From an uncultured Oscillospiraceae bacterium (GTDB taxonomy: Bacteria; Bacillota; Clostridia; Oscillospirales; Oscillospiraceae), in contig CANQKA010000006.1 of NCBI GenBank assembly GCA_947624395.1, forward strand, positions 1 through 46,810: a stretch of DNA of 46,810 nucleotides. Direction: 5' to 3'. A program made the position numbers and the translations under genes. This document shows, one piece after another, positions 16,701 through 33,824 of the stretch (within the stretch, counting starts at the first letter, position 1; each line of letters opens with the position of its first letter). The notes below the pieces were generated by a model. That model searched no databases. It saw nothing but the letters and a program-made list of their open reading frames with translations, and had not been told where the DNA came from.

Positions 16701-19700
16701 GCGGGCCGTCCCGCCCGCGAATACCGCGCTCTGGGCGTAACTCTGTTTAGATGTTTCCTGGACAGTATATCGCATGTTCTCCGGCAAGCCGTAGATGACG
16801 ATGGCCTGTCCTTCCTGCAACGTAAAGGTCATCTCGCCGTCGTTCACCTGAAGCGTTGTGGCCGTGGGCGCGGTCACGCCCCGGTCCTCATAGCCGGCGG
16901 CGACCTGGCCCACATAGGGATACTCTGTGCCATCCGTCGCCCCGTCTATATCCACGGTGAAGGTAAACGCTTCATTCAGGGCGGAGCCCATGGGGGACAC
17001 CGTCTTTTCCACCCGAAGCCAGTCCAGCAGCGCGGTCAAGCTGACCGTGTTGGACCGGACCGTTTTATCCTCGCCGTTGCAGATATAGACCGCCGTCGCC
17101 TGGTTTTCGATGATCCGCTTTTGCGTCCCGTCCGGGACGATGACCGCCTGGAAGGAGAACGTCCGCGTCTCGCCCGGCTTAAGGATAGCGGCGGGCCAGG
17201 TCACGGTCCGGCTGGTTTCGTTGTATGTCCCGCCGGAGTTCGGGACATACGTCATGCCCGCGGGCACCTCGTCGGACAGGGTGAGCGTCACGTCGTCCGC
17301 GGCGTTTCGGTTGGTGACGGTTATCTCGTAGCGCACCGTGTCGCCGGTGCTGACCGTCAAAGGGCCGGCGGTCGGCTCGCCGCCCGCAAGGGCCTGTTTT
17401 TTGATGACGTCCACGCCGATGGGTGTATTGGTAAAGCCCGCCGCCGAAACGCTGCCTGCCGACACGGTGCCGGTCTTTTGCCTGTCCGCCTCCGGGATGC
17501 TGTAACGGTCCTCAATGTCGGTCAGGTCCTCCGAGACCTCATACACCGTCCCGTCGGGCAGTTCAAACCCGGCGGTCTGCCCATTACGGATGGTGAACGT
17601 GCCGGTGTAGGTGTAGGTATCCCCCTTTTGTGTCAGCGCCATGACCTGCTCAGTCTCGCCGCTGCCGTCGGCGTTGGCCACCGTATAGCGGACGGTGTTT
17701 CCCGCGCCGAAGAACGTTTGCGTGTCTTTGTCATAGCTGGGCAGGGTAAAGGTCACGTCGAACTTGAAATCCGTATCGGTGGGGTCCGCGCCTTTCACCG
17801 TCTTGGTCACGTTCAACCGGCCCAGGGTTGACTTGAACCACACGTCCACCTCGCCGCCGTTGGGCACGTTCCGCCACAGGTAGCCGTGGTTGCTCTTGTC
17901 GTCATAGGTGAACCACTTCCACTGACCGGAAAGCAGCTTTTGGGCGGCGTCGGCCTGCTTGTCGTAGGTGATGGTCAGGCCTTCCATTTCTCCCAGATTG
18001 AAAAAGCTCTCCCGTTTGGCCATATAATACTGGGCGGTGGTATAATTTGCCGAGCCGCCCGCCGCCACGTCGGCGGCCGTAAAGCGCTTGGCGCTGGCGC
18101 TGCCGCCGCTTACGCGGCAATGCTTCGCGCCCGCTGCGTCCGTATAGTTGAACGTGACGTAATAGGAGAAGGGCGCCGAATCCACGTCCCACCAGGCGGT
18201 GAGGAACACGGCGCGCTTTTGCGCCTCGTTGTTATACAGCGTCGCCGCAGACACAAGCGTGCGCAGGTCCACCTGGTCCGTGTTGGCGATGACCCGGTAT
18301 TCGCCCGGTACCGCGGTGTACAGCGGCTTGCCGTCGCTGCCCAGCACGAACTGACGGGCGGAAGCGTCCCACTTATAGGGGCGGCCGTCGCTGTCCGTCA
18401 CCACCCAGCCGCTGAAGGCGGCGGGCCGCTCGGGACCGACGTTTTTCGGCACGTTGTTCGGCACCGTGATCCGGTTGCTGCCCTCGCCGCCGCTGTAACC
18501 GCCCGCGCCGGCCACCACGGAGTAAAAGTGGTCCCCGTTGGTGTCCTGCCAGCGGCCATTCTGCCCCTCGATGGCATCACCCGGCATATTCTCGACCGTT
18601 CCGGTCAGATCGGGGTTCAGTTCCTTACCGGCTTCGGCGCCGTCCTGATAGACCACCAGGTATTGCATCAGCTGCGCCCGTGCCTCCAGCAAATAGATGT
18701 TGCACGTGTCGTCGGCCGCCCCTTCCGCATCATTCGCGTACAGGTTTTTCAGGGTGGTGTAATACCACCCCTCGCTGTCGGGGCCGTCGATCGCAAGCGT
18801 GCACTTAGCCGCGCCGGCGGTCGCCTCTTTGATCTCCGCACCTTCCATCTTTCCCCGCAGGGTCAGCGTGGGCTCCTTCTCCGTGCCCATGGGCACGCCG
18901 CCGGCGAAGTTATACCCATCCTCCGGCCTGAAGCGGATGTTGCCGGTATATGTTTTTCCCCCGTCCGACACCGTGCTGGTCACGTTGTAGAGGAAGTTTA
19001 CGTCATAATACTTCCCGTCGGGCCTTATAAAGGTGTCGAGAGTATATGAATCCTTATTGCGTGTGCACAGCGCCTGTCCGGGCTGCAGCGCGTACCATCC
19101 GGGGGTGGTATGCGTTCTCGCGTTCGCCTTGGACCAGGCCTCCACCTGCACGCCGTACAGGGCGGAGACGACCATCTCCTTGTAGCTCTCATTGCCGGAA
19201 GTCAGCGACCCGCCTGTGACCACCACGTCCCGGGTCGCGCCGCTGATCGTGATCGTGTATTGCCTTACGTACACCTGCTCGCTCTTATTATTCGTGACTT
19301 CCACCGCCCCCACGGTGAGCGTCACCTCAGCGCCGGAGGGAAGGGTCGTTTTGGCCGATCCCGTTGCGTCTTTTGTGCTTGCCAACGGGTTTGCTATGAA
19401 GGGGATAGCCAGCGCCGCCCCGTTGATCTGCAGGGAGCGCAGTTCCAGGTTCGACCCGTCGGCATGGTTGGGGTTCACGGTAAAGGACCAGGAAAGTTCT
19501 TTATTCGGCGCTCCTGACACCGTCCAATTGCTGACATCTGTGACCTTTTTGCTTGTTTCCGGCGATTGGCCGCCGGTCTGCATATCCTTCCACAGCAAGG
19601 CGTCGAATGTGACCTCTGTCTTCTCCGTCAGCACCACCCGGACGGTCTGGTTTGCCGTGGCCGGGGCGCCGCCGGGACCGCGGGAGTCATAGCTGCCGGT

Positions 19701-20828
19701 GAGGGTGTAATAGGGAGGGGTCGTCTCGCTCTCTATCACATCGATCCGCGCCGTGGCGCTGGAGTTATTGTTGAGCAGTTCATATTTGGGGTCGACGCCC
19801 AGGCCGTAATTGCCGTAGTCCGCCTCCCGCGGGAACCGCTCGGTCAGAGTGCTGCCTCTGTCCCCGATAAACACGCGGCCGGTATAGCCCGCGGGGATGG
19901 CCACGTCCACGCCGAACCAGCCGTCCGCCGTGGTTGTGGCCCGCTGGCTGCCGAAAATCGAATCCAGGCTGAACCCGTCGGCGTTGGCGTCCTTCTTCTC
20001 GTCGCCCACGTAGACCTCATAATCGACCTTGTATTCCGCCGGCACATACCGCACCTCAATGGGCGGGATATCGTATGTGTCGCTGGACAGCACCACCGTG
20101 CTCATGCTGCCCGTCTCGTCCAGGGCGGAGAAATAGACGTATGTCTTTTCCACCTGCGCGCCATTCTCCGTAACGGTGACGGTGACGTTGCCCATCGTGC
20201 CGATGGACGTGCCGTGGATGCGCACGGAGGACAGGGAATACCCCCGCACCAGGGGGAACTGATTCGCCGCTTCCGTATTGTCCGACAGGGCCGCGCCGCT
20301 CGCCGGGCCGGGCCAGCCGCCCGAGGTCACGACGCCGGCTTCCTGCATGGCCGTGAAGCTGTTGTAGGTGATATTCACCCCCGCCTCGTTGGCGGACATG
20401 AGGGAGAAGCAGAAATATTTCGGGTCCACCACGCCGCCGGTAATATCCACCGGGGCGACCCCCTCCAGCGCGTCCTGCAGCGCCGTCAGCTCGATGCCGC
20501 TGCCGATGATGGCGTCCAGCGCCGTCACGGTCAACGGCTCCGGGGGGGTTGAAACCTCCGGTTCTTCCGTGGCAGCAGGTTCTTCCGTCGCAGCAGGTTC
20601 TTCCGTGGCAGCAGGTTCTTCCGTGGCAGCGGGCTCTTCTGTCGCAACGAGTTCTTCCGTCGCAAAAGGCTCCGATGTTGCGATAGGTTCCGGCGTTTCC
20701 ACAGCCTCCGGCGTCGGGTCAGGGGCCTCCGCCAGAACGGGCAGACCTTCCGCTAAAGATATGACCATCGTGAGACACAGCAGCGCCGTGAGCGTCCGCC
20801 GCCAGATGTCCCTGTTTCTCCTTTTCAT
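10728..20828 (-). CDS. giant (3366 aa) repeat-built cell-surface protein with sortase-type C-terminus
   Basis: An uninterrupted 10.1-kb gene. Order: Sec signal peptide (1-~33, MKRRNRDIWRR then a hydrophobic core ending VLAEA); a TEEPAA hexapeptide tract (~55-90); a unique head (~95-1000); a stalk of immunoglobulin-like modules, some of DUF11 type (~1130, ~1680, ~1810; e.g. VTYTVTVTNADTAHGTGPLTV), some like Spy0128/FctA pilin isopeptide domains (e.g. FTAPGTYTVMVRE), and about ten ~105-residue modules of the NTYHTG-SLTVTN type, nine in direct tandem (~2284-3212); a Pro/Thr/Ala/Glu wall-spanning spacer; then PPTGDETA, a membrane helix and RRRRRKDP. PPTG is an LPXTG variant. A wall-anchored adhesin is the inference. 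The start at 20828 is chosen because the signal peptide begins there; the SD (GGGAAGGGA) is weak. No sortase is in the window. Confidence 0.9.
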   Translation of the reverse strand: MKRRNRDIWRRTLTALLCLTMVISLAEGLPVLAEAPDPTPEAVETPEPIATSEPFATEELVATEEPAATEEPAATEEPAATEEPAATEEPEVSTPPEPLTVTALDAIIGSGIELTALQDALEGVAPVDITGGVVDPKYFCFSLMSANEAGVNITYNSFTAMQEAGVVTSGGWPGPASGAALSDNTEAANQFPLVRGYSLSSVRIHGTSIGTMGNVTVTVTENGAQVEKTYVYFSALDETGSMSTVVLSSDTYDIPPIEVRYVPAEYKVDYEVYVGDEKKDANADGFSLDSIFGSQRATTTADGWFGVDVAIPAGYTGRVFIGDRGSTLTERFPREADYGNYGLGVDPKYELLNNNSSATARIDVIESETTPPYYTLTGSYDSRGPGGAPATANQTVRVVLTEKTEVTFDALLWKDMQTGGQSPETSKKVTDVSNWTVSGAPNKELSWSFTVNPNHADGSNLELRSLQINGAALAIPFIANPLASTKDATGSAKTTLPSGAEVTLTVGAVEVTNNKSEQVYVRQYTITISGATRDVVVTGGSLTSGNESYKEMVVSALYGVQVEAWSKANARTHTTPGWYALQPGQALCTRNKDSYTLDTFIRPDGKYYDVNFLYNVTSTVSDGGKTYTGNIRFRPEDGYNFAGGVPMGTEKEPTLTLRGKMEGAEIKEATAGAAKCTLAIDGPDSEGWYYTTLKNLYANDAEGAADDTCNIYLLEARAQLMQYLVVYQDGAEAGKELNPDLTGTVENMPGDAIEGQNGRWQDTNGDHFYSVVAGAGGYSGGEGSNRITVPNNVPKNVGPERPAAFSGWVVTDSDGRPYKWDASARQFVLGSDGKPLYTAVPGEYRVIANTDQVDLRTLVSAATLYNNEAQKRAVFLTAWWDVDSAPFSYYVTFNYTDAAGAKHCRVSGGSASAKRFTAADVAAGGSANYTTAQYYMAKRESFFNLGEMEGLTITYDKQADAAQKLLSGQWKWFTYDDKSNHGYLWRNVPNGGEVDVWFKSTLGRLNVTKTVKGADPTDTDFKFDVTFTLPSYDKDTQTFFGAGNTVRYTVANADGSGETEQVMALTQKGDTYTYTGTFTIRNGQTAGFELPDGTVYEVSEDLTDIEDRYSIPEADRQKTGTVSAGSVSAAGFTNTPIGVDVIKKQALAGGEPTAGPLTVSTGDTVRYEITVTNRNAADDVTLTLSDEVPAGMTYVPNSGGTYNETSRTVTWPAAILKPGETRTFSFQAVIVPDGTQKRIIENQATAVYICNGEDKTVRSNTVSLTALLDWLRVEKTVSPMGSALNEAFTFTVDIDGATDGTEYPYVGQVAAGYEDRGVTAPTATTLQVNDGEMTFTLQEGQAIVIYGLPENMRYTVQETSKQSYAQSAVFAGGTARRDGSGSIDFTRRDAWTFTNTRLGRLSVTKAVKGRGNTEAFPLSVRFTLPDAASGFFTGSSVSYTVFGQERTLALARSGQDYTGTLELKAGEQALFYLPHGTAYSVDESLAQINAGLTGKGQYTNDLNGRLITGAVSYQTPSAVTVTNTYVFNPVTAAMPAFTKGFTDDSNNDGFSLKEVMDGGLTDNSVPPFQFQMELASAVPADGVRMPTNRKANVAVTNPNKGKAGAAAVTFADELTFTKPGTYTVNVWEVEPEDHHPTMEYDTAVRTVTFTVTDDNGALRVRTNTDDMAFKNRWYAADITGISKTAERSVVFPGEEVEFTIALTSNTVEVRDLVVTDTIPDGLTLVEGSDGKLVETSDDLASVAAQIDGQTLTVKIGRFKTANTAEQGTIKYKVKVPAVTEPKTWTNTVEVQYGNPSRNYTWRKASATVYTPYVTVAMTQQAGSGDATRDPISVKANDVVTYTVTVTNADTAHGTGPLTVTDELPDGMTVDGSTKTITWNIDNIPAGQSRNLTFEATVGADGKALENQATVTFDGHAYSFTSNKVMAIRQDTGGLRVTNKVEGPYADKSKPFTFTVELDDKKTGTYGDVAFKAGVAAFELAHGQEKLITGLPTGGYTVTETAETGYTTTSPLNGNIEDGKVATAAFVNTYDLMPKATTGPQLTKKLTNGTLKGDDFSFTMTVDKTEGVTLPDPATVANDADGNISFGDIKFTAPGTYTVMVREDQPTGPSYTEYDGHAYTVTYEVTNKGDGTLTVTPTEAGDKEFTNINTLGTLEVTKSVDGDATAPWAKDDTTYPVTVTFTLPAENANTTGSETAYFGMSEYKVPYTIGGEPDNLTLSRAGSTRQYTGTLRLKKDQTASFTLPAGTEYAVSETPPVGFTAEVTGDSGTVEVNTTAAAAVKNTVATGNLTVTNTVTGPGAETDRDFTFIVTLSEQINDTFGDVKFTNGVATFDLSDGKSQSIPGLPIHVGYTVTEEPQANYYSYASNAAGTITDAADGVKADFTNIRRSGSLRVTMIVTGPGGDTTKDFPFTVELREADNTPISGTFGGVEFANGVAKFALKSGESVSLTGLPMGATYKVTETNHDGYTVTGANWEETISNVGAVASFVNERQTGSLTVTNLVEGASADKTKDFHFTVTLSDKTITGTYGRMEFEKGVARFSLKGGESLTASSLPTGTEYTVTEDDANKGGYVTTSTNTSGTISNGGEAKAEFINTYHTGSLTVTQKVVGGNQLHDFKIYVRQVDGSITGTYGGMTFTNGLASFTLRHDQSVTADDLPAGAGFTVSEQAEEGYTTAIVASADKIPADGTAEVTVTNTYKGGSLIVKKTVAGKTEETRQFNFTVTLDDKTVHGPRGPVEFVGGKATFPLGDGGTIEIPGLPAGAHYTVTEEDVGADGYVTTSTDASGTIPHGDAAEAAFTNTYQPGSFTVTNTVTGPDQEFNYTVTLSDTTFTKSDGAMKFENGIATFKLTNNQSIKAENLPAGTYTVVQAPADGYATTSTNAEGTIIDGNSVTVNFLNRYKTGNLTVSKVVDGARADPTRAFAFTVKLDNDSINGEYGGMKFENGVAKFSLKGGESCTANGLPAGTTYTVEEDTPGMSYTGDGPKTGKIEDQKTAEANFVNTYHTGDLTVKKVLTTGGNTQREFTIDVELHDTTFGGTYGDMTFESGKAVVTLKGGESRTARGLPAEMKYTVTERYADGYTVAYENKEGTIPADGTEEVTVTNTYNGGGLTVTNTVTGNRADPNKQFNFTVSLANPINGPRSEDPEGGSTPWFKNGKATFELKGGESIFFQGLPADTTYAVIQASESGYVTTSSGTSGTIPNGDTANAAFTNHKQAPPDPGPVRPTASPQPSATPEPSATPEPTATPAPSDEPNATPAPSDSPDTTPEPTAVPDATPVPTDIPDATASPAPTEPPVASSEPFGTPEPDATPGPVATSEPFWSPVPSGSPTAPPTGDETALLPWLAVFGLSLAALAAVTLRRRRRKDP
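11192..13980 (-). repeat. nine tandem ~310-bp protein-module repeats in the giant gene
   Basis: Nine consecutive units each encode a ~100-residue module with the same skeleton: hydrophobic L-V-T-x-x-V, F-F-T-V-x-L, T-G-x-M-x-F-x-x-G-x-A-x-F-x-L-x-x-G-x-S, a GLPAG-like turn, Y-T-V-T-E, then G-T-I and F-x-N-T-Y. They are diverged at the DNA level, so homologous recombination between them should be limited but possible. Confidence 0.85.
20562..20669 (-). repeat. six 18-bp tandem repeats encoding TEEPAA units
   Basis: Six back-to-back 18-bp units (first unit 20562-20579; units 1, 3 and 4 nearly identical, units 5 and 6 more diverged). They encode the low-complexity TEEPAA tract just after the signal peptide. 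Such in-frame repeats usually vary in copy number between strains. Confidence 0.85.
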
Positions 20829-20931
20829 GCTCGTCCCTTCCCGGCATATGCCTGTCCGCGCCGCTATAAGCCTCGTGCAATTTACATTTATTACTAACAA
20901 ATTATGCATCTTGCCCAACTATTCAGACAAC

Positions 20932-20960: not shown

Positions 20961-21112
20961 GCAGCTATCTCACCCCGCGGCGCCACCAAAAGTCCTGTGG
21001 TAGATGATGCGTATTGTTAAATCCAGACGAAAAGTATATAATGCGGTCAGACCGTATCAAAACAGAAGTACAGCATGCAGAGCGTGCAAATATGCAGGGA
21101 GGGCGGCTTGTT

Positions 21113-23662
21113 ATGAAAGGTTCGGAGGCAAGACTGATCGACTATATGGAAGGGGCCGGCAAGCGCTATATCATCCCCGTATACCAAAGGAAATACGACT
21201 GGAAAGAGGACAACTGCCGCCAGCTTTACGAGGACCTGAAAAAGATCGTCCGGGACGGCCGGGAGAGCCACTTTTTCGGGAGCGTCGTCTCGTCCGTCGT
21301 GGGCAACGGCGCCGTCACGGAGTATCACATCATCGACGGCCAGCAGCGCCTCACCACGGTCACGCTCCTGCTTCTGGCGATAAGGAACCTCATCCGCCAG
21401 AAAAAGATCGCCGCCCGGGCCAACAGGCTGGACGAGCAGATCAACGACCGTTTTTTGGTATCCCCCTGGGCGGAGGATGGCGAGCAGATCAAGCTGCGCC
21501 CGGTCAAAGGGGACAGGGCGGCGCTGGCCAGGCTGTTCGGCGCGGAGGAGGACTATGACCCGGCCTCCAATCTGACGCTGAATTACCGCTTTTTCTGCGG
21601 CCAGCTGCTGAAAGGGGAGGTGCCGGTCGATGAGCTGTACGGTGCGATCGGCAAACTGGAGATCATCAGCATCACCCTGGATCAGAGCGACAACGCCCAG
21701 CTAATCTTCGAGAGCCTCAACTCCACCGGCCTTGCCCTGACAGAAGGGGATAAGATCAGAAACTATATCCTGATGGGCCAGCGTCCGTCGGAGCAGAACA
21801 GGCTCTATGATACATACTGGACGACCATCGAGCGCTGCGTGGAAAACGATGTCAGCAGCTTTGTCCGGGACTATCTCAGCGTCAAGCAGCAGCTCACGCC
21901 CACAGTCAGCAAGGTCTACCGGGCCTTCAAGGACTACGCCGAACAGAAGCAGCTGCCCATGGAAGAGCTTCTGGCCGACCTTTGCCTGTATGCGCGCTTT
22001 TACGAAAAGCTTCTCACATGCACGAGCGGCCTGGGGGTGAAGAAGCTGGACGACTGCCTGTACCGTATGGCACGGCTGGAGGTGGTCGTCACAAGGCCGT
22101 TTCTTATGGAGGTACTGCGGCTGCATAAGGATGCGAAGCTCTCCGCCGGCGATGTGCTGCAGATCTTTTTGATAACGGAAAACTATCTGTTCCGCCGGAA
22201 TATCTGCGAGGTGCCCACCAACGCCCTGAATAAGATCTTCCTGAACCTGAACAGGGAGATATTGCGCTACGACGGCACCACGGACAACTATGTGCAGAAA
22301 TTCATATATGCGCTTTTGTCGAAGAAGGACAGCGGACGGTTCCCGGACGACGGGGAATTTACCGCGGCGCTGGCGGGCAAACAGGTGTACCTGATGCGCG
22401 GCAAGTATAAGGCGTATCTCTTTGAGCGCTTTGAAAACTACGGGACCGTTGAGACGAAAGATGTCTATACGCACTTGGACAACAATACGTATTCCATCGA
22501 GCACATCATGCCCCAGCATTTGACGCCGGCATGGACGGAGGCGTTGGGCGCCAACGCCGCGGAGATACACGCCACCTGGCTCCATCGGCTGGCAAACCTC
22601 ACGATCACCGGGTATAACCCTGATCTCGGCAACAGGACGTTTGCGGAAAAGCGCGACGATCCTGAGGGCGGCTACAGGGTCAGCGGCCTGCGCATGAACC
22701 AGAAGATCGCCACCAGGCAGTCCTGGGGTCTGCCGGAGCTGGAGGAGCGCAATGAGGAGATGATCGCGCTTGCCACTAAGATATGGGCATACCCGCAGAC
22801 AGCTTTCGTCCCGGCGGAGAGGCAGTTCGATTCCTGCACCCTGGACGACGAGAATGTGGAGCTGACCGGGCGGGACATCGCCAAATACAGCTACCAGAAC
22901 GTGGAGCAGCCTGTGAGCAGCTGGGCGGATATGTTCGAGCACGTGGTGAAGTATCTGCACGGCCGGGACGGGAGCGTGCTGTCCCGTTTGGCCTATGAGC
23001 CCGACGCGGCTGCGGGCCTTGCCAGCTATGTGAGCGGCACGGCGGCAGGGCTGCGCCACCCGTTGAAGATTGACGACAACATCTACATGGAGCGCAATAC
23101 GAGCACGGTGATGAAGATATCGGTCCTGCGCCGGCTGTTCGCGCTGTACGGCGCCGATCCGACGGACCTGGTCTTCTACCTGAAGGACGCGGGCGGCGAG
23201 AGGTCCGGGGAGGCCAGCCGTTATGAGATACGAAAGCGCTACTGGACGTATGCCCTTCCGCTCATGCAGGAGCGCAACGCCCACCGGGGCACTTTCGGCA
23301 ACTGCAATCCGATCACCTCCAACACGATAGCCGGTTCTTTCGGCATCAGCGGGTTCAGTATCTGCTGTATCGCCAATTACGACTGCGCCCGGATCGACTT
23401 CTATATGTGTAAGTCCGACGCGGCGCAGAATAAGGCGGCCTTTGACCTGCTCCATGCGCACAAGGACGAGATCGAGGCGGAGCTGGGCATATCCCTGACC
23501 TGGGAGCGGGCCAACGAGTATAAGTCATCGTGGCTGTCCTATACCCTCCGGGACGTGAGCGTCACCGACGAGGCGGACTGGCCAAGTATGGCCAAGTTCC
23601 ACGCGGAATGGAGCGACAAAATTTGCAACGCCGTTTTGCCGTATTTACAAAATAAAATGTAG
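21113..23662 (+). CDS. GmrSD-type (DUF262 + DUF1524) nuclease with C-terminal DUF4268-like domain
   Basis: An 849-residue protein. DUF262: IPVYQRKYDW (21-30) and DGQQRLTT (75-82), the nucleotide-binding/hydrolysing motif, with FESLNSTGLALTEGDKIRNY after it. DUF1524: SIEHIMPQH around residue 460 followed by LANLTITGYNPDLGNR, the His-Asn-containing HNH-like nuclease motif. The last ~115 residues, with RKRYWTYALPLMQER, resemble DUF4268. GmrSD and relatives (BrxU, SspE) cut phage DNA with modified bases, so an antiviral role is inferred. The gene is alone: no methyltransferase or partner is next to it. The start at 21113 is chosen because it follows a GGGAGGG SD; an in-frame ATG lies further upstream but without an SD. 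Confidence 0.88.
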   Translation: MKGSEARLIDYMEGAGKRYIIPVYQRKYDWKEDNCRQLYEDLKKIVRDGRESHFFGSVVSSVVGNGAVTEYHIIDGQQRLTTVTLLLLAIRNLIRQKKIAARANRLDEQINDRFLVSPWAEDGEQIKLRPVKGDRAALARLFGAEEDYDPASNLTLNYRFFCGQLLKGEVPVDELYGAIGKLEIISITLDQSDNAQLIFESLNSTGLALTEGDKIRNYILMGQRPSEQNRLYDTYWTTIERCVENDVSSFVRDYLSVKQQLTPTVSKVYRAFKDYAEQKQLPMEELLADLCLYARFYEKLLTCTSGLGVKKLDDCLYRMARLEVVVTRPFLMEVLRLHKDAKLSAGDVLQIFLITENYLFRRNICEVPTNALNKIFLNLNREILRYDGTTDNYVQKFIYALLSKKDSGRFPDDGEFTAALAGKQVYLMRGKYKAYLFERFENYGTVETKDVYTHLDNNTYSIEHIMPQHLTPAWTEALGANAAEIHATWLHRLANLTITGYNPDLGNRTFAEKRDDPEGGYRVSGLRMNQKIATRQSWGLPELEERNEEMIALATKIWAYPQTAFVPAERQFDSCTLDDENVELTGRDIAKYSYQNVEQPVSSWADMFEHVVKYLHGRDGSVLSRLAYEPDAAAGLASYVSGTAAGLRHPLKIDDNIYMERNTSTVMKISVLRRLFALYGADPTDLVFYLKDAGGERSGEASRYEIRKRYWTYALPLMQERNAHRGTFGNCNPITSNTIAGSFGISGFSICCIANYDCARIDFYMCKSDAAQNKAAFDLLHAHKDEIEAELGISLTWERANEYKSSWLSYTLRDVSVTDEADWPSMAKFHAEWSDKICNAVLPYLQNKM

Positions 23663-23801: not shown

Positions 23802-25505
23802 ATGAAGTTTTCCCAGATGCCCTATGCGCGCCCGGACATTGCCCAGGTGAAGCAGTCGCTGGCGGCGCTGACCGAGCAGCTGAAGGCCGCGCCGGACTAC
23901 CCGGCGGCCAAGGCGGTATTTCTGCAAAAGGAGCAGGAGCAAAAGCACCTGTCCACTCAGGTCAACCTTGCCCACATCCGCCACACCATCGACACCCGGG
24001 ACGCGTTTTACGACGGGGAGATGAAGTTCTGGAACACGGCTCTGCCGGAGCTGCAGGAGTACCAGCAGCAGTGGACCATGGCCATGCTGCAAAGCCCTTT
24101 CCGGGCGGACTTCACCGCGGAGTACGGCGATCTGATGTTCGTCAACGCGGAGATCGCGCTGAAGGCGTTTTCGCCGGCGATCATCCCGGAGATGCAGCAG
24201 GAGAACGACCTGACCCAGGAGTACGAAAAGCTTTTGGCCTCTGCCCAGATACCCTTTGAGGGCAAGGTGTACACCCTGAGCCAGCTCACACCTTATAAAA
24301 ATGACCCGGATGACGCACGCCGTCTTGCTGCCTGGAAGGCGGAGGGCCAGTGGTACAAGGACAACCAGGCCCAGCTGGACGAGATATACGACAAGCTTGT
24401 CCACCTGCGGGACGCCATGGGCAAGAAGATGGGCTACGAGGGGTACACCACCCTGGGCTACTACAACATGGGCCGCAACTGCTACGACCGTCAGGACGTT
24501 GAGAAGTTCCGCGCCGCCGTGGTGAAGTATCTTGTGCCCGTGGCGGACAAGATCTACCGCCGGCAGGCCCAGCGTCTGGGCAAGAGCTATCCCATGAGCT
24601 TTGCGGACAACGCCCTGGAGTTCCGCTCCGGCAACCCGCGGCCGCAGGGCACGCCGGACGATATTCTGGCGGCGGGGAAGAAGTTCTATAACGAGCTGAG
24701 CGCCGAGACGGGCGAGTTTTTCAACACCATGCTGGACATGGAGCTTCTGGACGTTCTGTCCACGGAGGGCAAGGAGGCCGGCGGGTACTGCACCAGTCTT
24801 GCCGATTACGGCGTGCCTTTCATTTTCGCCAACTTCAACGGCACCCAGCACGACGTGGAGGTCGTCACCCACGAGGCCGGCCACGCCTTTGCCGCCTGGA
24901 CCAACCGGGACCGCATACCGGCTCAGTACATCTGGCCCAGCATGGAGGGCTGCGAGGTCCACTCCATGAGCATGGAATTTATGGCTTGGCCCTGGGAGGA
25001 GGACTTCTTTGGCCCGGACGCCCGGAAGTTCCGGTACAGCCACCTGGCCGGTGCGCTGACGTTCATCCCCTACGGCACCATGGTCGATCACTTCCAGCAC
25101 GAGGTCTACGATCACCCGGACATGACCCCGGCGGAGCGCCACGGTGTGTGGAAGCGTCTGCTTGGCGTGTACATGCCCTGGATGAAGCTGGACGGGGATA
25201 TCCCGTTCTACAGCGAGGGGGAGGGCTGGCAGCGCCAGCACCACATCTATTCCAGCCCCTTCTATTACATCGACTACTGCTTGGCCCAGACCGTGTCGCT
25301 GCAGTTCTGGGCGCTGCTGCAAGGCGACCAGAAGGCCGCGTGGGCGAAATACATGGCCTACACCCGCCAGGGCGGCAGCCGTGTCTTCACGGAGCTTCTC
25401 GCCAACGCCGGCCTGGAGAGCCCCTTTGAGGAGAGCTGCCTGCGTGGCGTGTGCGAAAAGGCCAGCGCGTGGCTGGACGAATACGACCTGAGCGGCATCG
25501 TCTGA
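23802..25505 (+). CDS. M3-family oligoendopeptidase (PepF/thimet-like)
   Basis: A 567-residue cytosolic metallopeptidase with the zinc motif HEAGH at 357-361 (EVVTHEAGHAFAAW) and a downstream Glu-rich third-ligand segment GCEVHSMSMEFMAW. The length fits the M3 clan oligoendopeptidase group. These enzymes cut short peptides after import. It stands directly upstream of the oligopeptide transporter operon, which makes a peptide-uptake and -degradation pair likely, but it has its own promoter and the 370-bp gap contains another promoter, so it is a separate transcript. Start from the SD AAGGAGGAAG at ATG 23802. Confidence 0.92.
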   Translation: MKFSQMPYARPDIAQVKQSLAALTEQLKAAPDYPAAKAVFLQKEQEQKHLSTQVNLAHIRHTIDTRDAFYDGEMKFWNTALPELQEYQQQWTMAMLQSPFRADFTAEYGDLMFVNAEIALKAFSPAIIPEMQQENDLTQEYEKLLASAQIPFEGKVYTLSQLTPYKNDPDDARRLAAWKAEGQWYKDNQAQLDEIYDKLVHLRDAMGKKMGYEGYTTLGYYNMGRNCYDRQDVEKFRAAVVKYLVPVADKIYRRQAQRLGKSYPMSFADNALEFRSGNPRPQGTPDDILAAGKKFYNELSAETGEFFNTMLDMELLDVLSTEGKEAGGYCTSLADYGVPFIFANFNGTQHDVEVVTHEAGHAFAAWTNRDRIPAQYIWPSMEGCEVHSMSMEFMAWPWEEDFFGPDARKFRYSHLAGALTFIPYGTMVDHFQHEVYDHPDMTPAERHGVWKRLLGVYMPWMKLDGDIPFYSEGEGWQRQHHIYSSPFYYIDYCLAQTVSLQFWALLQGDQKAAWAKYMAYTRQGGSRVFTELLANAGLESPFEESCLRGVCEKASAWLDEYDLSGIV

Positions 25506-25876: not shown

Positions 25877-28057
25877 ATGAAGAACGCGAAGAAACTTCTT
25901 GCGCTCGTGATGGCTCTGGCCATGTGCCTGAGCCTGGGCGCGACTGCTTTCGCCTCTGAGGGGGAGGAAGAGGTCGTTTCCATCGCCGGCAAGGAGTACG
26001 GCACCGACTATGTGGAGCTGTACGAGCAGTTCTCCGACGTGACCATCGACGAGGTCATCGAGGACGAGGCTACCGGTCTGGCGTACATCGAGCGCGACGG
26101 CGAGCAGTATGAGCTGGGCATGGACTTCCTGTCCATGGCTATGGTCTACAACTGCACCGTGCCCGAGGGCGGCGTCTGGGAGACCGAGGACGACGTGTAC
26201 GCCACCTGGTGGCGGCTGTACATCCAGCGCTGGAACTACCTGCTGCCCGAAGTGCCTCTGTACTCCAACGAGTACTATGATGTGTACAACGCGCAGATCA
26301 AGGGCGTGGAAGAGCATCCCACCAACCCCTACTGGGGCCCCGCTGCCGCTGTGATCGACTGGTCCAGCGAGAAGGAGGACAACTCCATCATCCTGGGCAA
26401 CTCCACGGAACTGTCCGGCCGTTTGCGCAGCGCCGCTTTCGGCGTGTCCAGCCCCGGCGCCGGCGACCTGGACGTGGAGAACCTGATCACCGGTCTGGAG
26501 ACCGTCTCCACCACCAAGGAAGGCGGCTACGAGGTCAACCCCACCGTCGTGGAGAATATGGAGACCGTTGACAACGAGGACGGCTCCCGCACCTACACCA
26601 TTCATCTGTATGACGACCTGAAGTTCTCCGATGGCAGCGCCATCACCGCCAAGAACTACCTGGTCAGCATGCTGGCCAACTGCGGCCCCGTGGCCGTGCA
26701 GGCCGGCAGCCAGGGCACCGGCGGCATGAACTTCGTGGGCTATGAGGCCTTCAACGCCTACGACGGCACCAACGACGGCGACGAGGCCAGCAAGACCTTC
26801 TCCGGCGTGCGTCTGCTGGACGACTACACCCTGCAGGTCACGGTCGACGCCCAGTATATGCCTTACTTCTATGCCATCACCTACGCCGGCTTCTCTCCCC
26901 AGCCCGTTGAGCTGTGGTTGGGCGACGCCGACATCATGGACGACGGCGAGGGCGTCTATCTGACCGACAACTTCTATGAGAAGGACGGCGACTCCTACAC
27001 CCACGCGCAGCAGATCAGCGACGCCGTGTGGGATCACTCTCAGGATTATCCTTACTCCGGTCCTTACATGATCGAAGAGTGGAACGAGGCCGACAAGTCC
27101 GTCACCCTGACCAAGAACCCCGAGTTCAAAGGCAACTATGAGGGCACCGTTCCCTCCATCGAGAAGATCGTCTACAAGCGCATCATCGCCGAGACCCAGC
27201 TGGCCGACTTTGAGGCCGGCGGCGTGGACGTGCTGAGCGGCATCACCGGCGGCAACGAAACCAACGAGGTCATCGCCCTTGTGGACGCCAATCCCGACAA
27301 GTATGTGACCACCCACTACAGCCGCGCTGGCTACGGCAAGCTGGGCTTCCGCGGCGACCTGGGCCCCGCCCAGTTCGTTGAGGTCCGTCAGGCTATCGCC
27401 TACTGCATGGACCGCGCCACCTTCGCCAAGGACTTCACCGGCGGCTACGGCGGCGTCACCGACGGCCCGTACTACACCGGTTCCTGGATGTATGAGGCGG
27501 CTATGGCCGACGGCATGCTCCTGAACGCCTATGACACCTCTGTGGACAGCGCCATCGCGGTCCTGGAGGCTGGCGGCTGGGTGTACAACGCCGACGGCTC
27601 CGACTACTCCGGCGAGGGTGTCCGCTACAAGAAGATCCCCGCCGACCAGATGTATGATTACGACATCACCTACGCCTCCATCGACGGCGCTTACAAAGTG
27701 GAGAAGGTGGGCGACGACTACTACATGCCGCTGGTCCTCAACTGGTACGGCACCTCTGACAACACCTTTACCGACCTGCTGGTGACCGGCTTCATGGAGA
27801 ACGACAACATGAAGGCCGCCGGCTTCGTGGTGCAGCAGACAATCGGCGAGTTCAACCCGATGCTCGACGAGCTGTATCAGGGCGCTCTGGGCGTCAGCTA
27901 CAGCGGCACTCCCACCTACAACTGCTTCAACTTCGCCACCGGCTTCACCTCCGCTGCCTATGACTACAGCTGGAACTGGCGTCTCGATCCCTACTGGTTC
28001 GAGAACAACTCCGTCTGCTACATCAAGGATATGGCCGACGTGTACTGGCTGAGCTGA
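25877..28057 (+). CDS. oligopeptide ABC transporter substrate-binding protein (OppA-like), unusually long
   Basis: A 726-residue extracellular binding protein of the SBP-5 (peptide/nickel) family; typical members are about 500-600 residues. Seen: signal peptide 1-~27 (MKNAKKLLALVMALAMCLSLG, cut after AFA), an acidic N-terminal insert, then the family segments NPTVVENMETVDN.., YTIHLYDDLKFSDGSAITAKNYL, PYSGPYMIEEWNEADKSVTLTKNPEF and a VRQAIAYCMDR segment. A Cys at 17 is preceded by LAM, not a normal lipobox, so ordinary lipidation is doubtful. SD AAGGAGGT lies 7 bp before ATG 25877. First gene of the operon; ligand not decided by sequence. Confidence 0.9.
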   Translation: MKNAKKLLALVMALAMCLSLGATAFASEGEEEVVSIAGKEYGTDYVELYEQFSDVTIDEVIEDEATGLAYIERDGEQYELGMDFLSMAMVYNCTVPEGGVWETEDDVYATWWRLYIQRWNYLLPEVPLYSNEYYDVYNAQIKGVEEHPTNPYWGPAAAVIDWSSEKEDNSIILGNSTELSGRLRSAAFGVSSPGAGDLDVENLITGLETVSTTKEGGYEVNPTVVENMETVDNEDGSRTYTIHLYDDLKFSDGSAITAKNYLVSMLANCGPVAVQAGSQGTGGMNFVGYEAFNAYDGTNDGDEASKTFSGVRLLDDYTLQVTVDAQYMPYFYAITYAGFSPQPVELWLGDADIMDDGEGVYLTDNFYEKDGDSYTHAQQISDAVWDHSQDYPYSGPYMIEEWNEADKSVTLTKNPEFKGNYEGTVPSIEKIVYKRIIAETQLADFEAGGVDVLSGITGGNETNEVIALVDANPDKYVTTHYSRAGYGKLGFRGDLGPAQFVEVRQAIAYCMDRATFAKDFTGGYGGVTDGPYYTGSWMYEAAMADGMLLNAYDTSVDSAIAVLEAGGWVYNADGSDYSGEGVRYKKIPADQMYDYDITYASIDGAYKVEKVGDDYYMPLVLNWYGTSDNTFTDLLVTGFMENDNMKAAGFVVQQTIGEFNPMLDELYQGALGVSYSGTPTYNCFNFATGFTSAAYDYSWNWRLDPYWFENNSVCYIKDMADVYWLS

Positions 28058-28203: not shown

Positions 28204-29247
28204 ATGGCAAAATACGTTCTCAAGCGTATCGGGTATATGCTGGTGGTGCTGGTCATCCTGTCGTTCATCCTGTTTATGATCTACAGCCTTGTGCCGGCCA
28301 ACCGGGCCTATACCGACGCGCAGACGGAATTGAAAACGCTGAAAAACTCCATCCCCAAGGGGCAGGAGCAGGAATATTTCGACCAAATTTATCTGCGCTA
28401 TCAGCGCGCGTACGGTACCGATACCAACAACAAGATCATCCGCTATCTGCGGTGGGTCGGGCTGTACCCCCTTTACGACGGAAGCTACGATGGCCTTCTC
28501 CAGGGCAATCTGGGCTACTCCTACGACTATAAAAAGCCGGTCGTAGACGTGGTGGCCCAGCCCATGGTGAATACCATTAAACTCAATATATACGCCACGA
28601 TCCTGGCCCTGGGCATCACCATACCCCTTGGCATCCACTGCGCGGTGAAGCGGGGGACCAGGTTCGACCAAGGCATCCAGGTGTTCACCATCATCGGGTA
28701 CAGTTTGCCCACGTTCCTGATTGCCATTTTGTTCATCTGGATATTCTGCTCCAAGCTGCATATCTTCCCGCCCAGCGGCATGAAGACGCCGGGTACCAAC
28801 TTCACGGGCTTCGCCAAGTGGAAGGACGAGATGTATTATATGTGTCTGCCCCTGATCGTGGAGACCTTCTGCTCCCTGGGCGGCATGACCCGTTACGTCC
28901 GTGCCTCCATGATCGAGGCCCTGAGCATGGACTGCATCAAGACCGCCCGGGCCAAGGGCCTGCGTGAAAAAGTGGTCATCTACTCCCACGCCTGGCGCAA
29001 CGCCCTCATCCCCATCGTCACCCTGGTGGTGGGCTGGTTCCTTGGCATCTTCGGCGGCTCCATCGTCATTGAGAACATCTTCGGCTGGAACGGCATGGGC
29101 CGGCTCATGTTCCAGGGCCTGCAGGTGGCGGACTACGACGTGGTCATGCTCATGCAGATGTTCTACATAGCCGTGTCCCTGATAGGCACGCTTGTCATCG
29201 ACCTGATTTACGGCCTGGTCGATCCGCGTGTCCGGGTGAATAAGTGA
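28204..29247 (+). CDS. oligopeptide ABC transporter permease (OppB-like)
   Basis: A 347-residue inner-membrane permease of BPD_transp_1 type: N-terminal MAKYVLKRIGYMLVVLVILSF, a ~70-residue extracytoplasmic loop (QTELKTLKNSIPKGQEQ...), further helices, then the coupling EAA-like segment YVRASMIEALSMDCIKTARAKGL and a conserved C-terminus VIENIFGWNGMGRLMF. Partner of the OppC-like permease immediately downstream (17-bp gap). The DLIYGLVDPRVR end is typical of OppB/DppB. ATG 28204 is preceded by GAGCGAGGAACGAAT, a modest SD. Confidence 0.92.
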   Translation: MAKYVLKRIGYMLVVLVILSFILFMIYSLVPANRAYTDAQTELKTLKNSIPKGQEQEYFDQIYLRYQRAYGTDTNNKIIRYLRWVGLYPLYDGSYDGLLQGNLGYSYDYKKPVVDVVAQPMVNTIKLNIYATILALGITIPLGIHCAVKRGTRFDQGIQVFTIIGYSLPTFLIAILFIWIFCSKLHIFPPSGMKTPGTNFTGFAKWKDEMYYMCLPLIVETFCSLGGMTRYVRASMIEALSMDCIKTARAKGLREKVVIYSHAWRNALIPIVTLVVGWFLGIFGGSIVIENIFGWNGMGRLMFQGLQVADYDVVMLMQMFYIAVSLIGTLVIDLIYGLVDPRVRVNK

Positions 29248-29263: not shown

Positions 29264-31216
29264 ATGAGCAAGAAACCTGGAAAGAAAAACGCCTCCTGGA
29301 TCGTCCGCCTGTTCCGGGGCGGCTCCAACACCCTGGCCGACGAGATGGACGCGGCGAAGGCCGCCGACGTGGAGGCCATCGTCAGCCCCGTGCGCCAGAT
29401 CGTCAACAACTTCCTGGAGAGGAAGCTGGCCGTTGGCGCGCTTATCCTGCTGATATGCATGTTCATCTTCGTGTTCGTGGGTCCTCTGTTCATGCCCAAG
29501 TATAAGGACGCCTACACCGAGGTCACCCAGCAGAGCATGGCCCCCAATATGCGCCTGATGAGCGTGCCGAAAGAGCTGAAAAACGACATCAAAATGATCG
29601 ACAGCTACGGCTCCTTCACCGTGGGCCTGTCCAACGCGGGCAAGGTCTACATCTGGGGCTCCACCCAGCTTGGCACCACCGGCATCGACATCGGCGATAT
29701 ACCCGAGGAGGTCCAGAACGCCAAGATCGCCATGGTGGCCGCCGGCATCGACCACGTTGTCGCCATCGGCGAGGACGGTCACATCTACTGCTGGGGCGCC
29801 AATACCCTGGGCCAGTACGGCACCGAGGCGGAGGCCGAGGCCAGCACCAAGGGCGTCAACCCCAATATCGCCTATATGCCGCAGGAGCTGGCGGACGAGG
29901 GCGTGGACGTGGCCAACGTGAAAAAGCTCACCTGCGGCTACCAGGCCACCGCCATCCTCATGAACGACGGCAGCTTCTACCTGTGGGGCAATAAGCTTAC
30001 ATACGCCAACATGGACCGTTACCTGGCCATGCCCACCATCGAGGACATCGACTTCACCCTGAACTACATCGTGGGCCTGACCGCCAAGCGCAACGCCGTC
30101 TATACCGGCTCCCGCGACCTGTACACCACCGTCCGGGCCAACGTGGGCGGCACGGGCGTGCCCATCAACGACTTCCTGGACGGGCGCAAGATCGAATCCA
30201 TCACCGCCACCAACACCAGCATGTGCCTGCTGCTGGACGATGGCTCTGTGTGCTTCGCCGGCGACTTCCCCCTGGACGCCACCAAGGTCCCGGAGCTGGA
30301 AGAAGGGGAGGACTTCATCCAGATCGTGGGCGGGTCCTACCACTACTCCGGCCTGACCAACAAGGGCCACGTGTACTCCTGGGGCAGCGACGCGCTCAAC
30401 CAGTGCCAGGTGCCCTCGTCGGCGGATAGCGCCACGGAGCTGTTCTCCGGCTCCTTCCAGACCTACGCCAAGGACGCCAACGGCGACCTGTGCGCCAAGT
30501 GGGGCCTGAAGGGCTACCTGTTCGGCACCGATACCCGCGGCGCCGACATCTTCCAGCGCATCATCGCCGGCGGCAAGATGACCATGACCGTTGGCGCCGT
30601 GGCCGTCATCATCTCCACCATCATCGGCATCATCATCGGCTGTCTGGCCGGGTACTTTGGCGGCAAGGTGGACGTGCTCCTGATGCGTGTGGCCGAGATA
30701 TTCTCCGCCATCCCGTTCCTGCCTTTCGCCATGATACTGTCGGCCGTCATGAGCCGGATGGTCCTGTCGGAGACCATGCGTATCTTCATCATCATGTGCA
30801 TCCTGGGCGTGCTGTCCTGGCCTGGGCTGGCCCGGCTGGTCCGCGGCCAGATACTGGTGGTGCGCGAGAGCGAATACGTGGTGGCGGCCCAGTCCATGGG
30901 CGTGAAAGAGGCCACCATCGCCTTCAAACACATCCTGCCCAACGTCATGAGCGTCATCCTGGTCAGCCTGATGCTGGACTTCGGTACCTGCATGCTCACC
31001 GAATCCTCCCTGAGCTACCTGGGCTTCGGCGTGGCCTACCCTCGTCCCACCTGGGGCAATATGCTCAACGGCGCCAACAACGCCACCATCATCAACGCCT
31101 ACTGGTGGCAGTGGGTGTTCACCTCCATCTTCCTGGCCGTGACCACCGTCTGCATCAACATCGTGGGCGACGCCCTGCGCGACGTGATGGACCCCAAGTC
31201 CAGCGTGGAAAAGTGA
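29264..31216 (+). CDS. OppC-like permease with an inserted RCC1-type beta-propeller
   Basis: 650 residues; OppC/DppC permeases are usually near 300. N-terminal tail 1-54, first membrane helix 55-77, then an extracytoplasmic insert ~100-415, then the normal permease from LFGTDTRGADIFQRII (419-434, the OppC HPLGTDxxGRD signature) through the coupling loop YVVAAQSMGVKEA (538-550) to 640. The insert shows six or so RCC1-like blades: GLSNAGKVYIWGSTQLGTTG (121-140), AIGEDGHIYCWGANTLGQYG (167-186), LMNDGSFYLWG (232-242), LLLDDGSVCFAG (322-333), GLTNKGHVYSWGSDALNQ (363-380) and a remnant at 400-415. The frame is continuous and codon use does not change. The domain would sit outside the membrane; a role in peptide capture or docking of the binding protein is inferred. 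Confidence 0.9.
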   Translation: MSKKPGKKNASWIVRLFRGGSNTLADEMDAAKAADVEAIVSPVRQIVNNFLERKLAVGALILLICMFIFVFVGPLFMPKYKDAYTEVTQQSMAPNMRLMSVPKELKNDIKMIDSYGSFTVGLSNAGKVYIWGSTQLGTTGIDIGDIPEEVQNAKIAMVAAGIDHVVAIGEDGHIYCWGANTLGQYGTEAEAEASTKGVNPNIAYMPQELADEGVDVANVKKLTCGYQATAILMNDGSFYLWGNKLTYANMDRYLAMPTIEDIDFTLNYIVGLTAKRNAVYTGSRDLYTTVRANVGGTGVPINDFLDGRKIESITATNTSMCLLLDDGSVCFAGDFPLDATKVPELEEGEDFIQIVGGSYHYSGLTNKGHVYSWGSDALNQCQVPSSADSATELFSGSFQTYAKDANGDLCAKWGLKGYLFGTDTRGADIFQRIIAGGKMTMTVGAVAVIISTIIGIIIGCLAGYFGGKVDVLLMRVAEIFSAIPFLPFAMILSAVMSRMVLSETMRIFIIMCILGVLSWPGLARLVRGQILVVRESEYVVAAQSMGVKEATIAFKHILPNVMSVILVSLMLDFGTCMLTESSLSYLGFGVAYPRPTWGNMLNGANNATIINAYWWQWVFTSIFLAVTTVCINIVGDALRDVMDPKSSVEK

Positions 31217-31228
31217 GGAGGGAAGAAC

Positions 31229-32242
31229 ATGCCACTGCTTGAAGTGAAAAACCTGCGGACCTTTTTCAAAACGAAAAGGGGCATCGTCAAGGCAGTCAAC
31301 GACGTGTCCTATTCCCTGGAACCCGGCAAGACCATCGGCATCGTTGGCGAGTCCGGCTCCGGCAAGTCCGTCTCCGCCATGAGCATTCTCCAGCTGCTGG
31401 ATGAAAACGGCTATATCGACTCCGGCGAGATCATCTTTGAGGGCACGGAGCTGACGAAACTTTCCCGCGAGGAGATGTACCACATCCGCGGCAACGCCAT
31501 CTCCGTCATCTTCCAGGAGCCTATGACCAGCCTGAACCCGGTGTTCACCGTGGACCGGCAGCTGTGCGAGCCGTTCATCATCCACCAGGGCATGAACAAA
31601 AAACAGGCCCATGAACAGGCCCTGAAGATGCTCTACGACGTGCAGATACCCAACCCGGAGTCCGTGATACGCCAGTATCCCCACCAGCTTTCCGGCGGCA
31701 TGCGCCAGCGGGTGATGATCGCCATGGCCCTGGCATGCCGGCCCAAGATTTTGATTGCTGACGAGCCCACCACTGCGCTGGACGTGACCATCCAGGCCCA
31801 GATACTGCGGCTGATGAACGACCTGCAAAAGGAAAAGGGCACCAGCATCATTTTCATCACCCACGACCTGGGCGTCATCAACGAGATGGCCGACGACGTG
31901 GCGGTGATGTACTGCGGCCAGGTGGTGGAGAAGGCCACCGCACGGGTGATCTTCTCCGACTGCCCCGTGAGCCATCCTTACACCGAGGGGCTGATGATGT
32001 CCATCCCCCGGCTGAACGCCATCGACAAGAAGATCGAACCCATCCCCGGCGTGGTGCCCCATCCGCTGGCGCTGCCCAAGGGCTGCAAGTTCGCGCCCCG
32101 GTGCAAGTACTGTACGAAAAAATGTATGGAGGAGGAGCCGGAGCTGCTGGACGTGGGCAACGGCCAGCTCATCCGATGCTTCTATCCGGAAAAGGAGGTA
32201 AGGTGCAGTGAAGAGCACAAAAAAATTACTGTCCATCAGTAA
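31229..32242 (+). CDS. oligopeptide ABC transporter ATPase (OppD-like)
   Basis: A 337-residue ATPase: Walker A GESGSGKS near 40-47, Q-loop [12 protein letters not shown], signature LSGGMRQRV, Walker [15 protein letters not shown]-loop ITHDLGV, then the Opp-type C-terminal extension with a Cys cluster ([15 protein letters not shown] ... RCF), which in related ATPases can hold an Fe-S cluster. Energises the transporter from the cytosolic side. The SD GAGGAGGG lies before ATG 31229. The last 35 bases overlap the start of the next gene, in a different frame. Confidence 0.95.
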
Positions 32243-33824
32243 TCTGAAAAAATACTTCCCTGTGGCAAAGACCTCCCTGTTCCAGCGCGAGCAGCTCTAT
32301 GTCCGCGCCAACGAGGATATTTCCCTGGACATATACGAGGGCGAGACCCTTGGCGTGGTTGGCGAATCCGGCTGCGGCAAGTCCACTCTGGGCCGCGTGC
32401 TGCTCCAGCTCTATCCCCAGACCGCCGGCAACACCATGTATTACGGCTCCACCCTGGCCGACACGGCGCCGGAGTATGTGGAGCACACCCTGAAGCACCT
32501 GGACCAGTACAAGGAAAAGCTGAAAAAGGCGTCCGCCAAGGTCGCGGAGCTGGACAAACAGGTCCAGGACGCGGGCGGCGAGGACAACGCCGGCTTCTAT
32601 CTGCTCCAGGAGCAGAACCTGGCCCGCTGCGAGGAAAAGACCTGTCTGACGAACATCGTGAAGATCATGGGCGGCTTCTTTGCCGTGGACGAAAACGGCG
32701 CCGGCCGGGAGCTGCTGCTCAAGCAGCACGGCGAACAGGTCAAGCGCCGCAAGGCCAACGAGGCCTATCTGGCCGCCAAGCTGGACCATGACAGTCTGGC
32801 CGCCGACGCGGAGGCCGGTTCCAGCAAGGCCAAGAGCCAGCTGGCCGGTACCCAGGCGAAGATGGACGCCGCGAAAAAGCAGTTCGACGCCTGCGACGCG
32901 GCCGTGGCCGCTGTGGACGCGGAGCTGGACGCCCTGCGGGCCAAGTATGCGGACAACGAGGAGTTTGCCAAGTACGAGGCCATGCGGGACGACGGCATCG
33001 ACCTGGCGCGGCTGAAATACAATGAGATGCGGCTGTTCCGGAAGGACCTGCAGATCATCTTCCAGGACCCCTATTCCAGCCTGAACCCCCGCATGACCAT
33101 CGGCCAGATCATCGAGGAGGGCCTGCTGACCCACAATTTCTTCAAGCACGGCTCTGACAAGATGCGCCAGCACATCGTCAACACCATGGAGATGTGCGGT
33201 CTGCAGGAGTACATGCTCCACCGCTATCCCCACCAGTTCTCCGGCGGCCAGCGCCAGCGTGTGGCCATCGCCCGCGCCCTGGCCGTGCAGCCGAAGTTCA
33301 TCGTGTGCGACGAGTGCGTGTCCGCCCTGGACGTGTCCATCCAGTCCCAGATCATCAACCTGCTTCAGGAACTGCGGGAAAAGCAGAACCTGACGTATAT
33401 GTTCATCAGCCACGACCTTTCCGTTGTGCGCTATATCTCCGACCGCATCTGCGTCATGTACCTGGGCAACGTGGTGGAGCTGGGGGAGAGCGAGACCATC
33501 TTCAACGACCCCCGCCACCCCTACACCGTGGCGCTGCTCAGCGCCATTCCCACCACGGACGCGGACAGTCTGCAGCGGGAGCGTATCCTGCTGGAGGGCA
33601 ATATACCCAGCCCCATCAAGCCGCCCTCCGGCTGCAAGTTCCACACCCGGTGCTATATGGCCTGCGAAAAGTGCAAGACGGTCATCCCGGAGCTGCGGGA
33701 GATCGAACCCGGTCACTTCCTGGCCTGTCACTTCCCGGAGCGCAAGATCGACGCGGACGGGCATTATCTGTTCGAGCTGCCCAAGATGACCACCGTGGCG
33801 CGGGACACGGACAAGGCGGATTAA
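32208..33824 (+). CDS. OppF-like ATPase with a large helical insert
   Basis: 538 residues; OppF/DppF are usually ~320-340. Walker [10 protein letters not shown] is at 52-60. The Q-loop [15 protein letters not shown], normally ~40-60 residues later, is only at 283-297, because about 190 residues (~85-270) are inserted. The insert is rich in Ala, Lys, Glu and Asp and reads as helical coiled coil: [20 protein letters not shown] (93-112) and [20 protein letters not shown] (208-227) are examples. After it come signature FSGGQRQR (344-351), Walker [13 protein letters not shown] (364-375; Cys replaces the usual Pro after DE), H-loop His402 and a Cys-rich tail. GTG 32208 has a perfect AAGGAGGT SD 8 bp upstream. 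All catalytic motifs are present, so it should be active. Confidence 0.92.

Follow-up and report, generated by a model that had tools for sequence, protein, structure and literature searches.

An OppC-type oligopeptide permease with a predicted RCC1-like propeller between its first two membrane segments

The 46,810-nucleotide stretch analysed here, hereafter the window, is positions 1 to 46,810 of contig CANQKA010000006.1 (assembly GCA_947624395.1), from an uncultured Oscillospiraceae bacterium. Between positions 25877 and 33824, it carries the genes oppA, oppB, oppC, oppD and oppF in this order, which by sequence make up a complete oligopeptide ATP-binding cassette (ABC) importer, OppABCDF, and peptide import by this operon is predicted from family membership. 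The third gene, oppC, encodes a permease in which a predicted RCC1-type beta-propeller lies between the first and second transmembrane segments (TM1 and TM2). Both parts belong to known families, and their combination and the place of the propeller appear to be new. The coordinates of all features are collected in the table.

The oppC frame has no inner stop and ends in a single terminal stop, and the GC content at third codon positions is even along the gene (0.894 in the N-terminus and TM1, 0.925 in the propeller and 0.915 in the permease core). Pfam places OppC_N at residues 41-84 (28.9 bits; cut-off 23.9) and BPD_transp_1 at residues 455-645 (106.6 bits; cut-off 26.4), and the insert matches RCC1_2 (78.1 bits; cut-off 22) and RCC1 (53 bits; cut-off 21.7). 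WD40_RLD reaches 106.2 bits, below its threshold of 150 bits, and the best NCBIfam match, the Opp4C equivalog, scores 290.5 bits against a threshold of 350 bits, where the insert may cost score. In a search of the PDB, residues 417-646 match residues 81-301 of Escherichia coli OppC (8z21_B; whole-sequence E 4.4e-49), and the middle part of the protein matches UVR8, RCC1 and BLIP-II. The original prediction, made from the letters of the window, had claimed an open continuous frame with an intact permease around the insert, which these matches bear out, and its description of the protein as twice the normal length also holds, at 650 amino acids against 302 for E. coli OppC in the PDB.

The insert was modelled with AlphaFold2 as seven groups of strands, with the predicted local distance difference test (pLDDT) of 10-residue blocks from 101 to 420 ranging from 68 to 96 and mostly around 90. 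A blade motif, written after the sequence had been seen, occurs four times in the insert, compared with 0.0035 on average, and never more than one per sequence, in 2000 shuffles. Together with the Pfam RCC1 repeats, the model agrees with the RCC1-type propeller that had been proposed, and the proposed span of 29561-30509 (residues 100-416) is only a few residues off the modelled domain borders. By hydropathy, a single segment precedes the insert and the remaining segments come after it, which, with the Pfam order, fits the earlier placement of the insert in the outside-facing TM1-TM2 loop. In the available part of PMC12136057, the TM1-TM2 regions of both E. coli Dpp permeases, DppB and DppC, are periplasmic, so that the insert should face the cell exterior. 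The modelled domain is thus a seven-bladed, RCC1/BLIP-II-like outer domain between TM1 and TM2 of OppC. At its far end, six junction residues (G414, L415, G417, Y418, G421 and T422) are invariant in 23 aligned sequences.

Table. Coordinates of the propeller-bearing oppC, its operon and related features (window positions unless a locus or residue numbering is given)
Feature	Position	Strand	Basis or remark
oppC with propeller, 650 aa	29264..31216	+	open frame; Pfam order OppC_N / RCC1 / BPD_transp_1
TM1, about residues 55-76	29426..29491	+	hydropathy centre 64; model helix 54-75 (low pLDDT); OppC_N
modelled RCC1-type propeller, residues 95-416	29546..30511	+	AlphaFold2, VIA-align, Pfam
modelled propeller strand groups	residues 109-132, 155-178, 219-243, 261-291, 310-333, 351-374, 392-414		
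junction, residues 414-423	30503..30532	+	final blade continues into pre-TM2 GTD motif; 23-sequence alignment
permease core and remaining membrane segments, residues 417-650	30512..31213	+	BPD_transp_1; E. coli OppC 8z21_B
oppA, SBP_bac_5, signal peptide without lipobox	25877..28057	+	Pfam; start set at the ATG of MKNAKK
oppB permease	28204..29247	+	BPD_transp_1
oppD ATPase	31229..32242	+	ABC_tran, oligo_HPY
oppF ATPase, extra stretch of about 170 residues	32208..33824	+	ABC_tran, oligo_HPY; boundaries against L132, L136
M3-family peptidase upstream of operon	23802..25505	+	PF01432
alpha+beta repeat insert examples	L016:853-1503; L012:2194-2844		

The same architecture recurs in other bacteria. 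A scan of genome contigs yielded 27 loci, 25 of which hold the whole propeller and permease, and the two others (L053 and L056) start within the gene, at the end of a contig. The fusion is also carried by an isolate, Acetatifactor muris DSM 23669, at 73% identity. Identical borders in independent assemblies and in this isolate genome rule out an assembly artefact or two fused genes, and the claim of a real architecture is thereby borne out. The suggested survey of OppC homologues also finds the insertion in scattered relatives. At a threshold of E <= 1e-15, matches to the propeller profile are patchy: within the family, 31 of 400 genomes have them (20 of 106 genera), in the class 15 of 391, and in the phylum 9 of 299. 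The counts are rough, because they take in a few RCC1 proteins of other kinds, with open frames of 8036, 855, 827 and 510 amino acids, and because at least one divergent propeller, that of genome G670, was missed by the class-level search. In 34 chosen regions around propeller genes, all 35 propeller-OppC genes are preceded by oppB and followed by oppD-oppF. An oppA gene lies upstream of 34 of them; the exception is L142, whose contig ends first. One 20 kb stretch (L131, from G363) holds two propeller-type opp operons in divergent orientation. A scan of viral contigs with the insert gave three pattern matches, none of which was confirmed as a viral copy.

A tree was built from 95 permease cores with the insert removed, and it has long outgroup branches. 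In it, 70 propeller rows and L056, which is cut by its contig, fall on one side of a branch with a support of 100/99; L172 and L173 were found later and lie outside the tree. Close OppC proteins without a propeller were sought with a core-only search of 291 class genomes (48 rows), and all 13 matches of at least 48% identity carry the propeller. Among the 35 rows of at most 46% identity, 16 OppC genes were fetched, and none of these matches the propeller profile at E <= 1. A single gain of the propeller fits best, and its later spread may have involved transfer, loss or both.

Other OppC-like permeases (L012-L016, L174-L177, L181, L184 and others) have an extra outer domain of their own in the same loop, 215-287 amino acids long in 11 aligned sequences. 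This insert is modelled as alpha+beta repeats (pLDDT 84.5), whereas that of the window is modelled as a propeller, and the possibility that it is a degenerate propeller is ruled out by the alpha+beta model. It has no Foldseek match at E <= 0.001 and, in four scanned sequences, no Pfam match over the cut-off. In the tree, the permeases with this insert adjoin the propeller clade (99/96), a join that may be false given a long-branch warning. Two congeners, G025 (L190) and G024 (L191), have opp operons at the same place in the chromosome, between genes that are 87-92% identical, but the outer domain of OppC differs between the two operons, one of which is of the alpha+beta type. Since the OppC loop accepts an unrelated domain, these bacteria may use this loop to adapt their nutrient importers.

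The TM1 domain, the permease core and the operon partners are shared with known OppC/DppC permeases, namely those of E. coli OppBCDF (8z21), Mycobacterium tuberculosis OppABCD (8j5q-8j5t) and E. coli DppABCDF (PMC12136057). The OppC/DppC-type chains matched in the PDB are 287-302 amino acids long and propeller-free, whereas the OppC of the window is about 320 residues longer. With BLIP-II, the OppC propeller shares only the fold; the propellers of BLIP-II, UVR8 and RCC1 are not membrane-inserted, in contrast to the OppC propeller, which sits inside a permease. No description of an RCC1 propeller in OppC was found among the open-licence papers listed by searches on this combination and on insertions in the OppC loop, although automatic domain databases may list the combination, and the term permease is absent from the available part of a paper on RCC1/BLIP-II proteins (PMC9218822).

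Two known outer segments of permeases offer a comparison. The first, MalF-P2 (residues 91-271 of MalF), is an unrelated domain in another loop and another importer family, and is not a propeller. In the maltose importer it forms a folded domain on the outer side of a permease, within a loop, and one of its segments touches the binding protein, according to the available part of PMC3150292. MalF-P2 and the OppC propeller are thus both outer domains in a permease loop, and their roles may be alike. The second, the DppB scoop, lies on the outside of a peptide permease, at its TM1 side, and reaches into the binding protein (PMC12136057, available part); it is about 30 residues long, belongs to the B subunit and contains no propeller, whereas in the window the propeller is in OppC.

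By analogy, the reading preferred here, which we consider about evenly balanced between right and wrong, is that the propeller is an ectodomain that contacts OppA in a role like that of the unrelated MalF-P2. The propeller would stand beside the outer mouth of the pathway, at the docking site of OppA, a placement that follows from the topology and from E. coli Dpp, where DppA sits as a cap over both permeases and has the DppB scoop in its cleft (PMC12136057, available part). There it may contact OppA and could couple docking to the membrane domain, since the final blade joins the conserved pre-TM2 motif without a linker, or could hold OppA near, in the manner of MalF-P2 with MalE. Besides the position in the outer loop, the invariant junction and the constant place of the gene between oppB and oppD-oppF speak for this reading. 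Peptides would take the usual route from OppA to OppB/OppC, with the propeller as an accessory and not as a channel. The original prediction had named peptide, cell wall and binding protein as possible ligands; among these, the binding protein appears to have some support, indirect and mixed, which comes from the comparison of distances.

Distances of six parts were compared over 51 related, non-independent operons; L031, L130 and L133 were excluded, as were loci that hold two propeller operons or whose partners are missing or short. Of the six, the propeller diverges fastest (mean corrected distance 1.03), followed by OppA (0.89). The linear partial correlation between the two is 0.60 (bootstrap 0.49-0.67), and once the other parts are controlled for by a cubic fit, the three largest values are those of OppD-OppF (0.62), OppB-OppC core (0.52) and propeller-OppA (0.50). 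In E. coli Dpp, the counterparts of OppD-OppF and of OppB-OppC are in contact (available part of PMC12136057). In a permutation test, the propeller-OppA value was reached in 0 of 2000 runs. This covariation is a hint of contact between the propeller and OppA.

Several observations weigh against contact with OppA. Among close pairs (346 of 1275, with a propeller p-distance below 0.55), the propeller-OppA correlation is only 0.17, against 0.53 for the propeller with its own core and 0.40 for OppB with OppA. The permutation test does not single out the propeller, as OppB-OppA (0.26) and core-OppA (0.23), serving as controls, also gave 0 of 1000. Between its own two halves, the propeller shows a correlation of only 0.27, and a shared rate could explain the signal, because no other part diverges as fast as the propeller or OppA. 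In addition, the permease core is poorly predicted by AlphaFold2 (pLDDT 32-56 in blocks 421-650), so the placement of the propeller relative to the core is not fixed by the model, and tethering by the propeller would be unneeded because most OppA partners are already lipid-anchored.

A bolder form of the OppA-contact reading, possible but doubtful, is that the propeller was gained a single time and serves specifically as a clamp or sensor of OppA, gating docking and marking a distinct class of peptide importers in the phylum. The outer domain of OppC would then be the functional variable, with propeller and alpha+beta operons swapping in the same slot beside the M3 peptidase. The PDB-matched peptide permeases have nothing alike, and the engagement of the permease by its binding protein is still under study. 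With a propeller that leads straight into the pre-TM2 motif, this OppC offers a natural, removable domain for asking whether the C subunit controls docking.

Of the other explanations, capture of a ligand outside the cell is unlikely, yet fares best. The propeller would bind peptides from the surroundings, or a protein responsible for releasing or carrying them, and would feed or guard the importer, comparable to BLIP-II binding beta-lactamase. A shared fold shows no function, however, and RCC1-type propellers have many partners. As a clue to the substrate, the link to the M3 peptidase is partial: a peptidase of this family is found near 15 of 55 evaluable propeller operons, several of which are near-copies of the window, and is missing in 40; in L036 it is downstream on the opposite strand.

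We see little chance that the propeller attaches the importer to the cell wall or to polymers on the surface. It faces outside, as contact with wall or glycan would demand, but no known wall-binding domain is present among the Pfam matches of the OppC protein. Similarly improbable is that the ectodomain is exchanged under recognition by phages, bacteriocins or neighbours and has little to do with transport. The fast divergence of the propeller and the different OppC outer domains in the shared slot of G025 and G024 would suit such variation. However, these two differ by the whole operon and not by the domain alone, the core-propeller junction is invariant in the 23 sequences, and the architecture is retained across different families of the phylum.

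The suggestion that the propeller perhaps replaces lipid anchoring of OppA is very improbable and is rejected as a general role, as 47 of 54 readable OppA partners retain a strict lipobox and lgt and lspA are present in the window genome. These figures derive from 62 listed propeller operons, with 55 OppA starts and seven that were unreadable, and L150 was left out. In favour of a substitute anchor, the OppA proteins of the window, L031 (a near-copy of the window), L032, L034 and L039 have a signal peptide without any lipobox; those of L126 and L146 have a near-lipobox and are counted as lacking the strict form. The window genome contains seven SBP_bac_5 proteins, five with readable N-termini, the OppA of the window among them (L058-L061 and L064; L062 and L063 are unreadable), and by eye none of the five has a strict lipobox, L060 having a cysteine in SLGC. 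Four of the five belong to operons with a propeller-free OppC, so that loss of the lipobox follows the lineage and not the propeller.

The OppF of the window has about 170 extra residues (32475-32993) between Walker A (52) and the Q-loop (284) that are absent from L132 and L136 and by eye resemble a coiled coil. Coupling of the propeller to this stretch was rejected, since L128, L132, L133 and L136 combine a propeller with an OppF without it. A natural circular permutation seems to be present in the OppA of the window (segment 26111-26356): residues 87-168 correspond to the C-terminal end of its counterpart in L123 (654-723 of 730, 54%, E 7e-22), and residues 177-715 to 67-617 of that counterpart, with L121, L129 and L144 in agreement. 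A single search of open-licence papers gave no report of a circularly permuted substrate-binding protein. Coupling of the propeller to the permuted OppA was not upheld, as both OppA orders occur among propeller operons. Elsewhere in the window, a 3396-residue open frame on the minus strand (10728-20918) with 14 DUF7601, 9 DUF5979 and FctA-type stretches is probably a giant surface protein, and positions 21014-23662 hold a GmrSD-type restriction protein (GmrSD_N, GmrSD_C and DUF4268).
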